From assembly GCA_031292515.1 (NCBI GenBank), contig JARLGZ010000054.1:1-64000 (forward strand): a DNA stretch of 64,000 bases, read 5' to 3'. The stretch is from Puia sp. GTDB lineage: Bacteria > Bacteroidota > Bacteroidia > Chitinophagales > Chitinophagaceae. The notes under the pieces were generated by a model. It did no database searches and was not told the origin of the DNA. It worked only from the letters and a program-made list of their open reading frames with translations. The position numbers were made by a program, and so were the translations under genes. Position 1 is the stretch's first letter. Each line of letters opens with the position of its first letter. Below are positions 38,708-46,014 of the stretch, in pieces.

Positions 38708-39271
38708 ATGCATGACATTGAACCCTTTTATAACTGGCGTCACATCTATGTGAGCGAGGAGGATCAAGGGTCGCCCTTCTACGGGAGGGTCTATTCGGAA
38801 TTCGAGTTTACACATACGATCTACAATTACTATATCCACCCTCAGTGGGATGAGTTCGGATCCCGCACGCTCTACCTGAAAGTGCTGATCGCCGACTACG
38901 ACGAACACTATGCGATCATAGAATTGATCGGGGAATGGAACGATGCCATCGAAAACGATATCATGAACCTTAAAAGAGAGGTCATCGATAAATTCCTGGC
39001 AAACGACATCATCAAATACATCCTGATCGGCGAGAACGTGCTCAATTTTCATAGCGGGGATAAGGATTATTACGAAGAATGGTTTGAAGAAGTCACTGAC
39101 GACGATGGCTGGATCGTATGTCTCAACATGCCCGAGCAGACGCAGTACGATTTCAGGAAGGCGCACCTCAATCGTTATATCGAGCTGATGGAGATAGATA
39201 ACTGGCGGATTTATAAACCTTTTCACCTGTTCAAGCTCATTGACGAGCGGATTTCCAGCCGCCTGAAATAA
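38708..39271 (+). CDS. Conserved acidic protein, function unknown
   Basis: I do not recognise this 187-residue soluble protein. It is acidic and rich in Tyr and Trp. Two halves are visible: an N-terminal part with GSPFYGRVYSEFEFTHTIYNYYIHPQWDEFGSRTLYLKVLIADY, which looks like mixed strands, and a helical part ending YKPFHLFKLIDERISSRLK. No signal or membrane segment is present. It lies 33 bp after murQ and just before the attenuator promoter, so it probably ends the recycling transcript. Confidence 0.7.
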   Translation: MHDIEPFYNWRHIYVSEEDQGSPFYGRVYSEFEFTHTIYNYYIHPQWDEFGSRTLYLKVLIADYDEHYAIIELIGEWNDAIENDIMNLKREVIDKFLANDIIKYILIGENVLNFHSGDKDYYEEWFEEVTDDDGWIVCLNMPEQTQYDFRKAHLNRYIELMEIDNWRIYKPFHLFKLIDERISSRLK

Positions 39272-39280
39272 AAATTAAAT

Positions 39281-39310
39281 TTTGTAATTCCATTATAGTA
39301 GCTATTTTTG
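39281..39310 (+). promoter_or_regulatory. Promoter of the aromatic leader and pheA
   Basis: TTTG at 39281-39284 and TATTTTTG at 39303-39310 are separated by 18 bases. This fits the Bacteroidota -33/-7 pair (TTTG and TAnnTTTG). Transcription should begin around 39315-39318, right at the leader-peptide ATG. This is the best complete promoter I find in the window. Confidence 0.7.
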
Positions 39311-39318
39311 ACCTCAAT

Positions 39319-39411
39319 ATGAACACAACGAAAGCACACCGGTATTTTTATTTTTTCTTTTACTTCTACTTTAAAAGTGGACCGGGCCTGCTTTTGTTAA
39401 AAACTAAATAA
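39319..39411 (+). CDS. Phe/Tyr-rich leader peptide of a pheA attenuator
   Basis: An ATG-initiated 30-codon frame reads MNTTKAHR, then YFYFFFYFYF, then KSGPGLLLLKTK and a TAA. Ten consecutive codons are Phe (six) or Tyr (four), the two end products of the enzymes encoded downstream. It lies between the promoter at 39281-39310 and an intrinsic terminator at 39434-39463, followed by pheA. This is the layout of ribosome-mediated attenuators such as enterobacterial pheL. Stalling on Phe/Tyr codons would favour read-through. The CCGGG at 39382-39386 can pair with CCCGG in the terminator's 5' arm as a possible antiterminator. The leader mRNA would be almost leaderless. Regulation is inferred from layout. 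Confidence 0.85.
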   Translation: MNTTKAHRYFYFFFYFYFKSGPGLLLLKTK

Positions 39412-39433
39412 ATAAAAAATTAACATAAGATAG

Positions 39434-39463
39434 TCCCGGCCAAAAGCCGGGATTTTTGTTTTT
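39434..39463 (+). terminator. Attenuator terminator before pheA
   Basis: TCCCGGC (39434-39440) and GCCGGGA (39446-39452) form a perfect 7-bp stem with the loop CAAAA. TTTTTGTTTTT follows. It stands 22 bp after the leader-peptide stop and 35 bp before the pheA ATG, so transcription must pass it to reach pheA. Confidence 0.85.
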
Positions 39464-39497
39464 AAGGCCCTCAGGGAAAGGGCGACAACCAAAAAAT

Positions 39498-40448
39498 ATG
39501 GAACCGAAAAAGGAAACAGACCACAGCGATTCTTCTCTCTCCGGGAAACAATATATCCAGCCTTCCGGGGATTCAGGCATTGGCGGACAGACCACAGGAA
39601 AGGCTCCCGCCATCCGGTCGGTCGCCATCCAGGGTTATGAAGGCAGTTTCCACCAGGTGGCCGCGCAACAGTTCTTCGACAAAAACATAGAGGTGATCCC
39701 CTGTGCGACTTTCCGCGAAGTCGTCAGGATTGCCGCCAGTAAGAAGGAGAGTGACGGGGGCGTCATGGCGATCGAAAATTCGATTGCGGGCAGCATCCTT
39801 CCCAACTACAACCTTCTCCAGAAGAGCAATTTGCGGGTTATCGGTGAAATATACCTGCAGATCCGGCAGCATCTGCTGGTCAACCCCGGTGTAAAACTGG
39901 AAGACATCCGGGAAGTCCATTCCCATCATATGGCCTTGCTGCAATGTATCGACTTCCTGGAGAAATATCCGCAGTGGAAGCTGGTCGAGACGGAGGATAC
40001 GGCCCTCAGCGCGAAACTGCTCCATCAGCATCGCGGTAAACATACGGCGGCTATCGCCAGCAAGCTGGCGGCGGAGCTTTTCGACCTTCATATCCTGGCT
40101 CCGAATATCCATACGATGAAGAATAACTACACCCGTTTCCTGATCCTGCAACGGGAAGATGCCGCTCAATCCGCCGTCCAGGACGGGGCGGACAAGGCGT
40201 CGGTCAACTTCCACACGGACCACTCGAGGGGTAGCCTGGCCAGGGTGCTGACAAAGATCGCGGACGGCGGCATCAACCTGAGCAAGCTCCAGTCTTTTCC
40301 CATCCCCGGCAGCGAATGGGAATATTCCTTTCATGCGGACATGGAATTCGATAGCCTCGAACAGTTTAACGCAGTGATCGATTCGATCAGGCCGATTACG
40401 GTGGCCTTGAAGATATATGGGATCTATAAAAAAGGAATCACAGTGTGA
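39498..40448 (+). CDS. pheA: Prephenate dehydratase
   Basis: From the ATG at 39498 the enzyme has 316 residues; a TTG further up lies inside the terminator. After a disordered ~38-residue extension come the dehydratase domain (VAIQGYEGSFHQVAAQQFF; AIENSIAGSILPNYNLL; catalytic NYTRF at 210-214) and a C-terminal ACT domain from about 235. It turns prephenate into phenylpyruvate. In the ACT domain the usual ESRP motif for Phe feedback binding reads QSFP (265-268), so allosteric control may differ. It is the first gene after the attenuator. Confidence 0.9.
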   Translation: MEPKKETDHSDSSLSGKQYIQPSGDSGIGGQTTGKAPAIRSVAIQGYEGSFHQVAAQQFFDKNIEVIPCATFREVVRIAASKKESDGGVMAIENSIAGSILPNYNLLQKSNLRVIGEIYLQIRQHLLVNPGVKLEDIREVHSHHMALLQCIDFLEKYPQWKLVETEDTALSAKLLHQHRGKHTAAIASKLAAELFDLHILAPNIHTMKNNYTRFLILQREDAAQSAVQDGADKASVNFHTDHSRGSLARVLTKIADGGINLSKLQSFPIPGSEWEYSFHADMEFDSLEQFNAVIDSIRPITVALKIYGIYKKGITV

Positions 40449-40618: not shown

Positions 40619-40698
40619 AAATTAAGCAAACGAAATACAAATTAGGTAAACGAAATACAAATTAGGTAAGCGAAATATAAATTAAGTAATCGAAATGA
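40619..40698. repeat. 4 x 20-bp tandem repeat at the aminotransferase start
   Basis: Units begin AAATTAAG or AAATTAGG and end CGAAATAC or a variant, each 20 bp: 40619-40638, 40639-40658, 40659-40678 and 40679-40698. The last unit contains the aminotransferase ATG (40695-40697), so the repeat forms the whole ribosome-binding region. Confidence 0.85.
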
Positions 40699-41852
40699 AG
40701 ACTTCGAAACGACTGGAAGGCATCGGAGAGTACTACTTCTCGCAAAAATTGCGGGAGATCGATGAGCTCAACAAACAGGGAAAAAAGATTATCAACCTGG
40801 GGATCGGTAGCCCGGATCTGCCTCCGCATCCCGATGTTATCCGTGTCTTGCAGGAGGCCGCCGCCCGGCCGGACGTGCATGGCTATCAATCTTACAAGGG
40901 ATCTCCGGCCCTCCGCAAGGCGATTGCCGACTGGTATGCGACCTGGTATCGTGTGGAGTTGAACCCCGACACGGAAATCTTACCCCTGATCGGCTCTAAG
41001 GAAGGGATCATGCACGTGTGTATGACCTACCTGGATGAAGGAGACATTGCACTCGTTCCCAATCCCGGCTACCCCAGCTACCGCAGTGCCGTAAAACTGG
41101 CCGGCGGTATGCCCATCGACTATGATCTTACGGAAGGCAACCAGTGGTACCCGGATTTCAAACAGTTGGAAGACCTCGTGCATAAGCATGGCGACCGGGT
41201 CAAGCTAATGTGGGTCAACTACCCGCATATGCCGACAGGCCGGCTTCCGTCCGCTGAACTCTTCGAACAGCTCATCGCATTTGCGAAAAAGCATGGCATC
41301 CTCCTTTGTCATGACAATCCCTATAGCTTCATCCTCAACGACAAGCCGATGAGCCTTTTGGCCTTGCCCGGGGCGAAGGAGGTGGTGATCGAACTGAATT
41401 CCCTGAGTAAATCCCAGAATATGGCCGGCTGGCGGGTCGGCACCCTGTCGGGCGCGAAAGACAGGATCGACGAAGTGCTCCGTTTTAAGAGCAATATGGA
41501 CAGCGGGATGTTTCTGCCCGTTCAACTGGCGGCAGCCAAAGCCCTCTCGTTGGGACAGGAATGGTACGACAGCGTCAATGCCGTTTATCGCCGGAGAAGA
41601 GAGCTGGTTTTCAACCTGCTGGACTTGTTGGAGACGCAGTATGATAAAAAACAGGTAGGACTCTTTGTCTGGGCGCGGATACCGGCGGGCTATAAAGACG
41701 GGTTTGCCTTGAGCGACGGGATTTTGCACCGGGCCGGGGTGTTTATTACGCCAGGAGGAATTTTTGGAAAGGCAGGCGAGGGATATATCCGGGTCAGCCT
41801 CTGCAGTCCCGAAGAGAAACTCCGGGAAAGCATCGAAAGGATCGGGAAGTGA
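40695..41852 (+). CDS. Class I/II aminotransferase, probably for aromatic amino acids
   Basis: The 385-residue PLP enzyme shows INLGIGSPDLPPHPDVI, YKGSPALRKAIADWY, NPGYPSYRSAV and LCHDNPYSFI. The PLP lysine is in SLSKSQNMAGWRVG (Lys239), and RVSLCSPEEKLRE lies near the end. It belongs to the AAT I fold group close to LL-DAP and aspartate aminotransferases. Its place between pheA and tyrA suggests transamination of phenylpyruvate and hydroxyphenylpyruvate. Substrate is inferred from context. It is 246 bp after pheA, across repeats but no clear terminator. Confidence 0.85.
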   Translation: MKTSKRLEGIGEYYFSQKLREIDELNKQGKKIINLGIGSPDLPPHPDVIRVLQEAAARPDVHGYQSYKGSPALRKAIADWYATWYRVELNPDTEILPLIGSKEGIMHVCMTYLDEGDIALVPNPGYPSYRSAVKLAGGMPIDYDLTEGNQWYPDFKQLEDLVHKHGDRVKLMWVNYPHMPTGRLPSAELFEQLIAFAKKHGILLCHDNPYSFILNDKPMSLLALPGAKEVVIELNSLSKSQNMAGWRVGTLSGAKDRIDEVLRFKSNMDSGMFLPVQLAAAKALSLGQEWYDSVNAVYRRRRELVFNLLDLLETQYDKKQVGLFVWARIPAGYKDGFALSDGILHRAGVFITPGGIFGKAGEGYIRVSLCSPEEKLRESIERIGK

Positions 41853-42082: not shown

Positions 42083-42931
42083 ATGTTTGATACAGTTACG
42101 ATAGTGGGGGTGGGGTTGATCGGCGGCTCCTTTAGCCTGGCCCTCAAGGATCGGGGAATGGTCCGGAATGTCGTGGGGGTTAGCCGTACCCCGGCCAGTC
42201 TCGGCAAGGCGTTGGAACTGGGGCTCATCGATGAGGCGCTGCCTCTGGAAGAAGCGGTCAAAAAAAGCGACCTGATCTATGTGGCAATCCCGGTTGATGC
42301 TACGATCCCCGTAATGAAGCAGATCATGGGTCTTATCAATGAAAAACAGATTGTCGCGGACGCCGGCTCGACAAAATATGCGCTCTGTGAGGCCCTGGCC
42401 GATTACCCCCTCCGCAGGCGTTTTGTAGCCACCCACCCGATGTGGGGGACCGAATATAGCGGGCCTGAGGCTGCCGTGAGAGACGCTTTTGTCGGCAGAT
42501 CCTGTGTGATCTGTGAAAAGGAGAAATCGGATCCCGATGCAGTAGCGACAATGGAAAAGATTTACGAGGAACTGGGCATGCACCTGGTCTATATGGACGC
42601 TGCCAGCCACGACATGCATGCGGCATACATTAGCCATATTTCGCATATAACGTCTTTTGCCCTGGCCAATACGGTGTTGGAGAAGGAAAAGTAGGAGGAC
42701 GCCATCTTCGAATTGGCGGGTGGAGGGTTTGAAAGCACGGTCAGGCTGGCCAAGAGCAACCCGGCCATGTGGCTGCCGATATTCAGGCAAAACCGGGAAA
42801 ATGTGCTGGACGTGCTGAACGAGCATATCGCCCAGCTCAGGAAGTTTAAAAGTTGCCTCGAAAAGGAGAATTACGGGTACCTGGAGGAATTGATGGAAAA
42901 TGCGAATAAGATCAGGAAAATTCTAAAATAG
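42083..42931 (+). pseudogene. tyrA: Prephenate dehydrogenase, interrupted by an in-frame TAG
   Basis: The frame encodes 203 residues (MFDTVTIVGVGLIGGSFSLALKDRG with the NAD-binding glycines; ADAGSTKYALCEAL; ATHPMWGTEYSGPEAA), then TAG at 42692-42694. It then continues in the same frame for 78 codons (EDAIFELAGGGFESTVRLAKSNPAMWLPIF) to 42931. Without the stop it would be a normal 282-residue enzyme of the tyrosine branch, so one base change explains everything. The TAG lies inside TAGGAGGA, and a TTG codon 11 bases on could restart translation. It could be a pseudogene, a split gene, read-through or a sequencing error. Confidence 0.8.
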
Positions 42932-43063: not shown

Positions 43064-44749
43064 ATGACGACATTCGAAGGGTTGGGTTTAGATCCCAGGC
43101 TGGTACAGGCTACTGATGCGCTGGGATTCAAAGAACCAACACCCATACAGGCGCAGGCGATCCCTGTTTTATTGAGCGGCACCAAGGACCTCGTTGGCCT
43201 GGCGCAGACAGGGACCGGAAAGACGGCGGCTTTTGGCCTGCCCCTGTTACAATTGATTCAGGAAGGACAGAAGCATCCCCAGGCGCTGGTGGTGTGCCCG
43301 ACGAGGGAATTGTGCATGCAGATTGTGAGTGAGGTGGAGCTGTTTAAGAAGTTCATGCCTGCCGTGCATGTGATAGCAGTCTATGGCGGAACATCCATTG
43401 GTTTGCAAATCAGGGATTTAAAGAGAGGGGTTCAGATTGTAGTGGCTACTCCGGGCAGGCTGATAGACCTGATCGAGCGGAAGGCGATCAACCTCGAGCA
43501 AATAAAATACGTGGTGCTGGATGAGGCGGATGAAATGCTGAATATGGGTTTCCAGGACGATATCGAATTCATCCTGCAGAATACTCCTCAACGGGAAGCT
43601 ACCTGGCTGTTCAGCGCGACTATGCCTCCTGAGATTCGCAGGGTAAGCAAGAAGTATATGCAGCAACCGCTCGAAATCACGGTTGGAAAGGTGAATACGG
43701 CCAATAAGAGTATTGATCACCAGTACTATGTGACGGCGGCTCACCACCGGTATGAGACGCTGAAGCGGATCATCGACTTCAACCCCGGGATCTACGGGAT
43801 CATTTTCACCCGTACCAAAGCCGATGCGCAAAACATTGCCGAAAAGCTGACCCGGGAAGGATATGATATCGATGCTTTGCATGGCGACCTGACGCAGCAG
43901 CAGCGAGACAAGGTGATGGGCGAGTTCCGGGATAAGACCCTGCAGCTGCTCATTGCCACCGATGTGGCGGCCAGGGGGATCGATGTAAAGGAGATCACCC
44001 ATGTGATCAACTATGAATTGCCGGACGACGTAGAAGTGTATACGCATAGGAGCGGTCGTACGGGACGGGCCGGAAGCACCGGCATCTGTCTTTCGATCGT
44101 CCATAGCCGGGAAATCGGCAAATTGCGGCAGATCGAACGGATCGTACAGAACTCTTTTCATAAGCTGGAGATACCGGATGGCAAGGATGTCTGCCGCAAG
44201 CAGTTCTTTCATTTTATGGACAAGTTATTACAGGCCGATATCAGCCATGGCGACTACGAGTCCTATGTCCCCATGCTGGCGGAGAAGTTCTCCGATATAA
44301 GCAAGGAAGAAGTACTGAAGAGAGTAGCCGCTATGGAATTCGATCGTTTTCTGAAATATTATGAAAACGCGGAAGACCTGAATGTGAGGATGAGGGATTA
44401 CAAGGATGCCAGGGGCGGCGACCGGGGAGCCGTGGGCGAGCGAAGGGATTTCGCGCCCCGCCGGGAAGGCAGGGATTTTCGCGGAGCCAGAGAGACCAAC
44501 GGCGGCGGAGACTTTACAAAGCTTTTTGTCAACCTGGGCACCAAAGACGGGTTTTATAAGGCCAGCTTCCTGCAGTTTATCCTGGACATGAGCGATCTGA
44601 AGAAGGAAGTACTCGGCAGGATCGATATGAAGGAGATGAATAGCTGGATAGAGATCGACCGCCGGTCGGCGCCGCAGATGATCCGTGCCATCGACGGAAA
44701 GAATTACAAGGGCAGGAGGATACGGATGAACGATGCGAATAGCCGGTAG
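43064..44749 (+). CDS. DEAD-box RNA helicase with DbpA-type RNA-binding domain
   Basis: The 561-residue helicase has the Q motif (KEPTPIQAQAIPVLL), Walker A AQTGTGKTAA, PTRELCMQ, VLDEADEML, FSATMPP, ATDVAARGID and HRSGRTGRAG. An Arg/Gly/Asp-rich linker (about 445-485) leads to a C-terminal DbpA/CsdA-like RRM (TKLFVNLGTKDGFYKASFLQFIL). It should remodel structured RNA, for example in ribosome assembly or cold growth. It has its own promoter and splits the aromatic cluster in two. Confidence 0.92.
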   Translation: MTTFEGLGLDPRLVQATDALGFKEPTPIQAQAIPVLLSGTKDLVGLAQTGTGKTAAFGLPLLQLIQEGQKHPQALVVCPTRELCMQIVSEVELFKKFMPAVHVIAVYGGTSIGLQIRDLKRGVQIVVATPGRLIDLIERKAINLEQIKYVVLDEADEMLNMGFQDDIEFILQNTPQREATWLFSATMPPEIRRVSKKYMQQPLEITVGKVNTANKSIDHQYYVTAAHHRYETLKRIIDFNPGIYGIIFTRTKADAQNIAEKLTREGYDIDALHGDLTQQQRDKVMGEFRDKTLQLLIATDVAARGIDVKEITHVINYELPDDVEVYTHRSGRTGRAGSTGICLSIVHSREIGKLRQIERIVQNSFHKLEIPDGKDVCRKQFFHFMDKLLQADISHGDYESYVPMLAEKFSDISKEEVLKRVAAMEFDRFLKYYENAEDLNVRMRDYKDARGGDRGAVGERRDFAPRREGRDFRGARETNGGGDFTKLFVNLGTKDGFYKASFLQFILDMSDLKKEVLGRIDMKEMNSWIEIDRRSAPQMIRAIDGKNYKGRRIRMNDANSR

Positions 44750-44922: not shown

Positions 44923-46014
44923 ATGGAAGCAACTGAAACAAAGAACATGAAGGAGATCGTCCAGTCGGTCTGGAAGAAAAGGCCGATGATCATTTCGGGC
45001 CCCTGCAGTGCAGAGACCGAAGAGCAAGTGCTGGAGACGGCTACCCGCCTGGCCAAGACGGGAAAGGTGGATATGATCCGCGCAGGCATCTGGAAGCCCC
45101 GTACCCGTCCCGGCAGTTTTGAAGGGATCGGCACCAAAGGGTTACCCTGGCTGCAGAAAGCCAAACAGCTTACCGGTCTTCCCGTCACCATAGAAGTTGC
45201 TACCGGCAAACAGGTGGAAGACGCCTTGCATTTTGATGTAGACGTACTCTGGATTGGCGCCCGTACCACCGTCAACCCCTTCAGCGTACAGGAAGTCGCC
45301 GACGCGCTGCGGGGCGTGGATGTTCCGGTACTCATCAAGAACCCGATCAACCCCGATCTCGAACTCTGGACCGGCGCCGTGGAAAGGGTAGCCAAAGCCG
45401 GCATCAAACAGATCGGACTGATCCATCGTGGTTTCAGCTCTTATGGAAATACGGAATACAGGAATGCTCCCATGTGGCACCTGGCCATCGAGATGAAGCG
45501 GAGAAACCCCGAGCTCCTGATGATCAACGATCCTTCGCATATCAGCGGACGGCGTGATATCCTGCTCGACGTGGCGCAGAAGGCGATCGACCTGGATTTC
45601 GACGGTCTGATCATCGAGAGCCATATCGATCCGGACAGGGCCTGGAGCGATGCGAAACAGCAGATCACCCCCGAGCGTCTGGCGGAATTGCTGGACAGCA
45701 TCAAATGGCGTCATGAGACGAGCACAGAAAAAGAATTCATCACCGCGCTCGAGAAACTGCGCGAACAGATAAACCATATCGACGACGAACTCATGCAACT
45801 CATCGGTCAGCGCATGAAGATCGCCGATAAGATCGGGGAGTATAAAAAAAGCAACAATATCACGATCCTGCAGACCAACCGCTGGAATTCGCTCCTGGAA
45901 AGGGCTTTTGCCAAAGGCGATAAGCTGGGTCTGAGCAGGGAGTTCATCACCAAGTACTACGACGCGGTGCATATGGAATCCATCAATCACCAGAACAAGA
46001 TCATGAATTCCTAA
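44923..46014 (+). CDS. Bifunctional DAHP synthase / chorismate mutase
   Basis: The 363-residue product has a type I-beta DAHP synthase (residues ~1-265: PMIISGPCSAETEEQ; RAGIWKPRTRPGSFEGIG; IGARTTVNPFSVQEVADAL; NDPSHISGRRD). A C-terminal AroQ chorismate mutase follows (LREQINHIDDELMQLIGQRMKIADKIGEYKK, about 280 onward). It catalyses the first step of the shikimate pathway and the first step of the Phe/Tyr branch. Such fusions often use the mutase domain for feedback control by prephenate. It leads the run aroB-aroA-aroC. Confidence 0.92.
   Translation: MEATETKNMKEIVQSVWKKRPMIISGPCSAETEEQVLETATRLAKTGKVDMIRAGIWKPRTRPGSFEGIGTKGLPWLQKAKQLTGLPVTIEVATGKQVEDALHFDVDVLWIGARTTVNPFSVQEVADALRGVDVPVLIKNPINPDLELWTGAVERVAKAGIKQIGLIHRGFSSYGNTEYRNAPMWHLAIEMKRRNPELLMINDPSHISGRRDILLDVAQKAIDLDFDGLIIESHIDPDRAWSDAKQQITPERLAELLDSIKWRHETSTEKEFITALEKLREQINHIDDELMQLIGQRMKIADKIGEYKKSNNITILQTNRWNSLLERAFAKGDKLGLSREFITKYYDAVHMESINHQNKIMNS

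Follow-up and report, generated by a model that had tools for sequence, protein, structure and literature searches.

The DNA in front of pheA in the analysed window (the whole stretch of 64,000 nucleotides) very probably encodes a ribosome-mediated attenuator that senses charged tRNA-Phe and tRNA-Tyr and controls the pheA-aminotransferase-tyrA operon, as judged from sequence comparison and RNA modelling. A short ORF, promoter-like boxes, three mutually exclusive covarying helices and a conserved position before the operon were observed. The attributes of such an attenuator were found together, namely clustered cognate codons, a terminator before pheA, an antiterminator exclusive with it, and a protector hairpin between regions 1 and 2 (1:2).

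Leader ORF, predicted promoter and operon

The leader peptide ORF (MNTTKAHRYFYFFFYFYFKSGPGLLLLKTK; 39319..39411, plus strand) was recognised by reading the sequence and from relatives. It opens with the ATG at 39319, comprises 30 sense codons and closes with the stop codon TAA at 39409-39411; its control codons are ten consecutive Tyr/Phe codons (YFYFFFYFYF; 39343..39372, plus strand). Of 1263 small ORFs in the window that start with ATG (6-70 codons on either strand, each nested start counted separately), it ranked first with 10 aromatic residues in 12 codons, the runner-up having 5. When the intergenic stretch was dinucleotide-shuffled 3000 times, no shuffle reached 8 in 12. The aromatic leader ORF is real and not a product of chance.

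The ORF is preceded by a predicted Bacteroidota sigma-A promoter, whose -33 element (TTTG; 39281..39284, plus strand) and -7 element (TATTTTTG, consensus TAnnTTTG; 39303..39310, plus strand) were both assigned from the sequence and from relatives. The -33/-7 pair, the 30-codon ATG frame and the ten Phe/Tyr codons were all read where the first-pass annotation of this DNA had placed them. When the -7 box was set at -12 to -5, following the available passages of PMC9723704, transcription was predicted to start at about 39315, leaving a 5' UTR of 4 nt. The annotation had called such a near-leaderless promoter unusual; within the family it is instead conserved, being predicted for 103 of the 129 aligned leaders (alignment A1, below), in which the TAnnTTTG box ended 4-13 nt 5' of the leader ATG, versus means of 1.9 and 2.2 for a box at the same spacing in randomised upstream sequence. 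Calculated from the -7 box only, the predicted 5' UTRs of these 103 leaders were 0-9 nt long, most commonly 3, and 79 of the 103 also had a TTG 16-21 nt 5' of the box. As background, a box lay within 30 nt for 215 of 14435 ATGs, counting all ATGs in 80 named loci. Among the 28 leaders outside the family, the box was equally close in 3 and within 30 nt in 10; with a close box in only 3 of 28, the near-leaderless arrangement chiefly characterises the family. In F. psychrophilum, leaderless mRNAs make up only 5.5% of those with mapped starts, according to the available part of PMC9723704. A simple sigma-70 scan, which does not cover this type of promoter, did not list the leader promoter. Directly 5' of the leader, an ORF of 187 aa (38708-39271) recurs upstream in many close relatives; it had no Pfam or NCBIfam match.

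Downstream of the leader lies pheA (39498..40448, plus strand), encoding prephenate dehydratase (Pfam PF00800, PDT, E 4.7e-58), and the next gene encodes a class I/II aminotransferase (40695..41852, plus strand; PF00155). It is followed by tyrA for prephenate dehydrogenase (42083..42694, plus strand; PF02153), cut by an in-frame TAG, by a DEAD-box helicase gene (43064-44749) and, later in the cluster, by a gene for a DAHP synthase-chorismate mutase fusion (44923..46014, plus strand; PF00793 and PF01817), a recurrent neighbour. All 73 named loci whose downstream sequence extended 3.5 kb or further had tyrA within 2.5 kb 3' of pheA on the same strand, 67 of them had an aminotransferase gene within 600 nt 3' of pheA, and the DAHP synthase-chorismate mutase gene was often found further downstream. 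The gene 5' of the leader varied, being the 187-aa gene in some loci and a DEAD-box gene in others.

The in-frame TAG of tyrA stands at 42692-42694, at codon 204. Beyond it the same frame remains homologous to relatives (84% identity) as far as 42928, and tyrA is open at this position in the four relatives compared (L001, L002, L003 and L010). The TAG, which counts against the attenuator reading, may reflect either a real loss or an assembly error.

Pairing of regions 1 to 4

The intrinsic terminator hairpin (3:4; 39432..39454, plus strand), recognised by a terminator scan and by covariation, has the core stem CCCGGC/GCCGGG (39435-39440 with 39446-39451), which A-U, G-U and U-A pairs lengthen to 39432-39454, and it runs into the T tract TTTTTGTTTTT (39453..39463, plus strand). 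At least 6 T were found in the 10 nt 3' of the stem core in 117 of the 129 aligned leaders. The hairpin about 22 nt past the leader stop, the T tract and the pheA ATG at 39498 are present as first described. On the plus strand, region 1 (39329..39342; covariation and fold) is the 5' arm of the 1:2 protector hairpin, region 2 (39382..39400; covariation and motif count) can pair with region 1 or region 3, and region 3 (39420..39439; covariation and fold) can pair with region 2 as the antiterminator or with region 4 as the terminator. The 2:3 pairing includes CTTTTGTTAA (39391-39400) with TTAACATAAG (39420-39429), with one mismatch. A simple antiterminator of CCGGG with CCCGG had been proposed; this pairing holds, but the helix extends over about 14 bp instead of 5, and the 1:2 protector hairpin is an addition to that anatomy. 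By sequence comparison and fold modelling, the leader appears to be a three-state attenuator in which 1:2, 2:3 or 3:4 forms and the helices are mutually exclusive.

The helices were compared in A1, a MAFFT alignment of 129 non-redundant family leaders built without structure. Left out were 25 of 154 sequences at least 85% identical to a kept one, locus L019, whose contig starts inside pheA, locus L050, whose leader has no ATG, and those family loci in which no ATG leader reached 7 aromatic residues in 12 codons. Because A1 was selected for having a leader, it tests the helices and not the presence of the leader. Helix 3:4 had 92.1% of its cells paired and both-sided changes at 8 of its 9 pairs, with a covariation score of 0.250 versus a shuffled mean of 0.149. 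Helix 2:3 had 81.0% paired and both-sided changes at 11 of its 14 pairs, with a score of 0.120 versus 0.073; the pair 39399/39421, which switches between G-C and A-U more often than any other, was G-C in 62 sequences, A-U in 22 and unpaired in 38. Helix 1:2 was paired in 69.2% of cells overall, with a score of 0.231 versus 0.170. Its outer eight pairs reached 77.9%, all eight changing on both sides, and its well-supported part by covariation is 39329-39336 with 39389-39396, the innermost two pairs, in the CCGG part, being unsupported at 28.4% of cells in A1.

The observed scores and pairing of all three helices were reached by no shuffle, with the caveat that shuffles overstate significance among related sequences, and slid registers were lower in score and pairing for every helix. 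The count of 1:2 pairs changed on both sides did not exceed the shuffles, 103 of 500 reaching it. A slide of -1 matched or exceeded the true register of 1:2 in cells changed on both sides, as did slides of +1 and +3 that of 2:3 in further pair types. In a swap test with cut-outs positioned by the alignment, the cognate regions beat the mean non-cognate pairing in 115 of the 129 leaders for 1:2 and in 124 for 2:3. Compensatory changes are present in all three helices.

Fold prediction gave corresponding structures. The free leader (39315-39475) was predicted to adopt 1:2 plus 3:4 at -37.2 kcal/mol, and the 1:2 hairpin was assigned -20.9 kcal/mol. RNA from 39375 on, approximately that left free by a ribosome stalled in the Tyr/Phe run, was predicted to form the antiterminator at -20.9 kcal/mol, which was preferred even when the terminator was complete, and RNA from 39425 on, that left by a ribosome at the leader stop, to form the terminator at -15.8 kcal/mol. 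These three predicted states are those of the classical trp/phe scheme.

We infer transcription start, translation, stalling, switching and the response to starvation as follows. Transcription would begin about 4 nt 5' of the leader AUG. When both Phe and Tyr are sufficient, the ribosome would cross the ten Tyr/Phe codons and region 2 and reach the stop, whereupon region 3 would pair with region 4 and transcription would end before pheA. When Phe or Tyr is short, the ribosome would stall within the run and mask or melt region 1, leaving region 2 free to capture region 3 as it emerges; no terminator would form, and the operon would be transcribed. If the leader were not translated, the 1:2 hairpin would hold region 2 and the terminator would form.

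Conservation 3' of the aromatic run bears on whether the RNA or the peptide acts. In the closest relatives this segment reads CCGGGnnTGCTTTTGTTA. The exact CCGGG was found in 100 of the 129 leaders, the remaining 29 having variants or none; of the 100, 73 have it in frame 0, 8 in frame 1, 16 in frame 2, and 3 at the stop or past it. According to this frame, the peptide tail reads RPGMLLL, SRESFC or SRVVFAKA. Since CCGGG occurs in every frame or after the stop, the tail is under RNA-level rather than peptide-level constraint. It could be proposed that the nascent leader peptide itself arrests the ribosome, sensing free Phe/Tyr or another ligand instead of tRNA supply, and the aromatic run, along with the tail RPGMLLL in the closest relatives, is indeed conserved as amino acids. 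However, this conservation of the part after the run as RNA argues against arrest, as do the variable length and F/Y order of the run and the existence of Phe-only and Tyr-only leaders where the gene content of the operon differs; we consider arrest very unlikely.

The covariation also speaks to a second proposal, in which the hairpin is a constitutive terminator of the upstream gene and the ORF encodes a functional small protein, with no switching. As this proposal would have it, the upstream gene (38708-39271) runs in the same direction and stops 47 nt short of the leader ATG. But a -7/-33 pair stands 3' of that gene and 5' of the leader, the antiterminator 2:3, needless for a simple terminator, covaries, and the leader keeps company with the aromatic operon whereas the upstream gene varies, so that we give this proposal a slimmer chance still. 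Least probable of all is a metabolite- or tRNA-binding RNA (a riboswitch or T-box-like element) with an incidental short ORF: the 5' region is structured and has a terminator, and neither the window nor ten other loci matched any Rfam family at its gathering score, but the loop of hairpin 1:2 is made of Phe/Tyr codons, ORFs rich in aromatic residues are found again in distant families, and the best Rfam likeness, full length and below the cut-off, is to Phe_leader.

Spread and codon content among relatives

Attenuation of the pheA operon through a leader peptide, as the first-pass annotation had proposed, is supported by relatives. Two sets of loci were used. A genome scan with PheA contributed the best 80 of 188 confirmed loci, many of them titled Chitinophagaceae or with the name of a genus of that family, others only Bacteroidetes bacterium or similar. 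An own-family search found a PheA match in 103 of 147 genomes and contributed 30 loci, several on scan contigs. In 108 of these 110 loci (80 scan and 30 family loci, some contigs occurring twice; 89 distinct stretches), pheA is preceded by an ATG leader in which a stretch of 12 codons holds 7 or more aromatic residues; the exceptions are L019, which starts inside pheA, and L050, whose leader has a TTG start. A looser criterion (at least 6 in 12, with three start codons allowed) gave a leader in 70 of another 73 PheA-bearing family genomes, and in the relatives the terminator and antiterminator covary. The refuting case named by the first-pass annotation, close relatives lacking a Phe/Tyr leader 5' of pheA, was not observed: relatives have one, both same-genus genomes found (G035 and G127) included. 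Cultivable relatives with this leader include Puia dinghuensis, Niastella caeni and a Flavihumibacter. By the loose criterion, a leader was also found in 12 of 20 genomes of the order outside the family (20 of 26 matches fetched) and in 17 of 27 of the class outside the family (27 of 39 matches fetched). Outside the class, 4 of the best 20 of 127 matches had a leader of at least 8 in 12, the other 16 reaching at most 4, and among these best 20 the four were those with a PheA identity of at least 45%.

A covariance model (R1) was built from A1. In the own genome it gave one strong match of 145 bits, the next being 40.6 bits (150 of 2786 first-look candidates scored); the latter (L247) has no aromatic leader and was set aside as background, as were weak R1 matches away from pheA unless named otherwise. 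An R1 match lay directly 5' of pheA in 99 of the 103 PheA-bearing family genomes (of 147 genomes), a figure that measures consistency and not independent discovery because many of these genomes trained R1. Among the 103, no such match was found in G041, G049, G054 and G075; no leader was seen before pheA in G041 and G075, and G054 has a short leader candidate 5' of pheA. In the class outside the family, a match of the family-trained R1 adjoined pheA in 19 of 40 genomes, where the 21 matches seemingly near pheA had been chosen by eye and then measured; beyond these 19, the match heads the operon in G344 and G313. At one locus (L179, G106), two adjacent R1 matches stand 5' of pheA (531651-531803 and 531804-531966), possibly a tandem attenuator or a double scoring.

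The leader is also found where the gene order differs. In two genomes of the class (G344 and G313), it lies about 3.5 kb 5' of pheA, before a DAHP synthase gene (aroG-CM). The pheA gene of G049 lies on a separate contig and has no leader before it; the leader of this genome stands at the head of aminotransferase-tyrA. In G074 it likewise heads aminotransferase-tyrA, and in G068 it stands before tyrA. The leader thus stays at the operon head in G344, G313 and G049, indicating that the element belongs to the operon head and not to pheA.

The mix of Tyr with Phe had been regarded as unusual, yet it proved to be the rule: both residues occurred in 129 of the 129 aligned family leaders and in 28 of the 28 ATG leaders outside the family, both sets having been chosen for being aromatic-rich. 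Six leaders belong to split or reduced operons. The pheA leader of G135 (L255), with tyrA on another contig, has 6 Phe and 0 Tyr, and the leader of G068 (L241), whose operon starts with tyrA, has 0 Phe, 6 Tyr and 1 Trp; no prephenate dehydratase domain was found in this genome, which is 99% complete. The G074 leader has 2 Phe and 5 Tyr, with no prephenate dehydratase domain found in a genome only 90% complete, and that of G049 has 3 Phe and 5 Tyr; both thus keep Phe codons though pheA is elsewhere or was not found. In G016, pheA and tyrA are on separate contigs and each is preceded by a leader, with 5 Phe/3 Tyr and 3 Phe/3 Tyr. In G059, where no pheA was found, there was no leader before tyrA in the 0.9 kb left on the contig. 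These counts are suggestive only of codons partly following operon content: G135 and G068 would fit re-tuning, and G016 does not. A strict rule that a mixed leader means tyrA in the operon was rejected because of exceptions outside the family. There, tblastn placed tyrA within 6 kb in 15 of 20 mixed-leader genomes (20 of 28 leaders) and found none within that distance in G325, whose contig ends after 4.2 kb, G259, G298, G361 and G331; by Pfam, the cluster of G298 and G361 is pheA-aroG/CM-aroA-aroC.

Relation to known attenuators

Other leaders were observed on the same contig just beyond the window. A His leader, MITNRHHHHHFFLLPG, lies about 180 nt before the hisG match (L231, C183, match 67463); its ATG is preceded at 10 nt by a TAATTTTG box, and a hairpin with T tract was recognised by eye. 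About 400 nt before the match to a trpE-type gene (PF04715; L232, C183, match 75594), the leader MNNQFVSKVWWWHTNSERGK has three consecutive Trp codons and, by eye, a strong terminator-like hairpin. The Bacteroid-trp RNA (RF01692) precedes trp genes and has Trp codons. PMC2864571 lists it among cis-regulatory RNAs of Bacteroidetes. In the own genome, where 150 of 295 first-look candidates were scored, nothing matched this family at E up to 1.

Attenuators of this kind are already known in print. The available passages of PMC9723704, on the transcriptome of F. psychrophilum, describe structured transcribed 5' elements before pheA and hisG in Flavobacteriaceae, report strong indications of attenuation by leader peptides upstream of amino acid operons, and state that the pheA element is conserved in other genera. 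That element resembles the present one in phylum and as a structured 5' element before pheA; unlike here, those passages contain no sequence, alternative pairing, analysis of Phe/Tyr codons or presence outside Flavobacteriaceae. An attenuator survey of 2010 (PMC2965389), in the portion available, knew leader-peptide systems only from Proteobacteria and Actinobacteria and added Firmicutes, and the words Bacteroid and pheA are absent from that portion. Among open-licence full texts, no further case in Chitinophaga or Bacteroides and no leader with Tyr and Phe codons was found. The kind itself is known, and this analysis adds its dual input, its near-leaderless form, a complete set of covarying helices and its spread.

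The leader offers a sequence-level, covariation-supported model of attenuation where the Bacteroidota papers found only hint at the mechanism, with both Phe and Tyr as inputs and a 5' UTR predicted to be just a few nt long. We lean, with modest confidence, towards a wider reading: in Bacteroidota there would be one old, fast-evolving dual-input aromatic attenuator, a near-leaderless Phe and Tyr ORF in this family, kept at the operon head when the gene order changes and re-tuned on loss of pheA (Tyr-only) or of tyrA (Phe-only), as one of a genome-wide set that includes His and Trp leaders, in a phylum that lacks Shine-Dalgarno sequences. Where operons are split or reduced, the Phe-only and Tyr-only leaders amount to natural experiments through which codon sensing can be tested directly. 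As attenuation needs a ribosome close behind the RNA polymerase, the element would also be indirect evidence for transcription-translation coupling in Bacteroidota.

In mycobacteria, leaderless attenuators are known whose polycysteine control ORF sits right at the mRNA 5' end. They share with the present leader the predicted position of the control ORF at the mRNA 5' end, and differ from it in phylum and amino acid. The enterobacterial pheA leader (PheL; Phe_leader, RF01859) has the same target gene, and in both leaders the control codons are followed by alternative hairpins and a terminator. Phe_leader matched the window over the full-length model at 30.3 bits (E 0.0022; gathering cut-off 55). 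Among 20 of the 73 family loci, a sub-threshold Phe_leader match (E up to 0.5) was found in 4, and Thr_leader and Leu_leader gave one equally weak match each; sub-threshold matches to Rfam sRNAs were regarded as chance. On this analysis, the leader before pheA would work like Phe_leader but is no member of that family by score. The aromatic codons of PheL are all for Phe, and in enterobacteria Tyr genes are under the control of TyrR. Unlike Phe_leader, the leader here has Tyr mixed with Phe throughout, is near-leaderless by prediction and holds region 2 inside its ORF.
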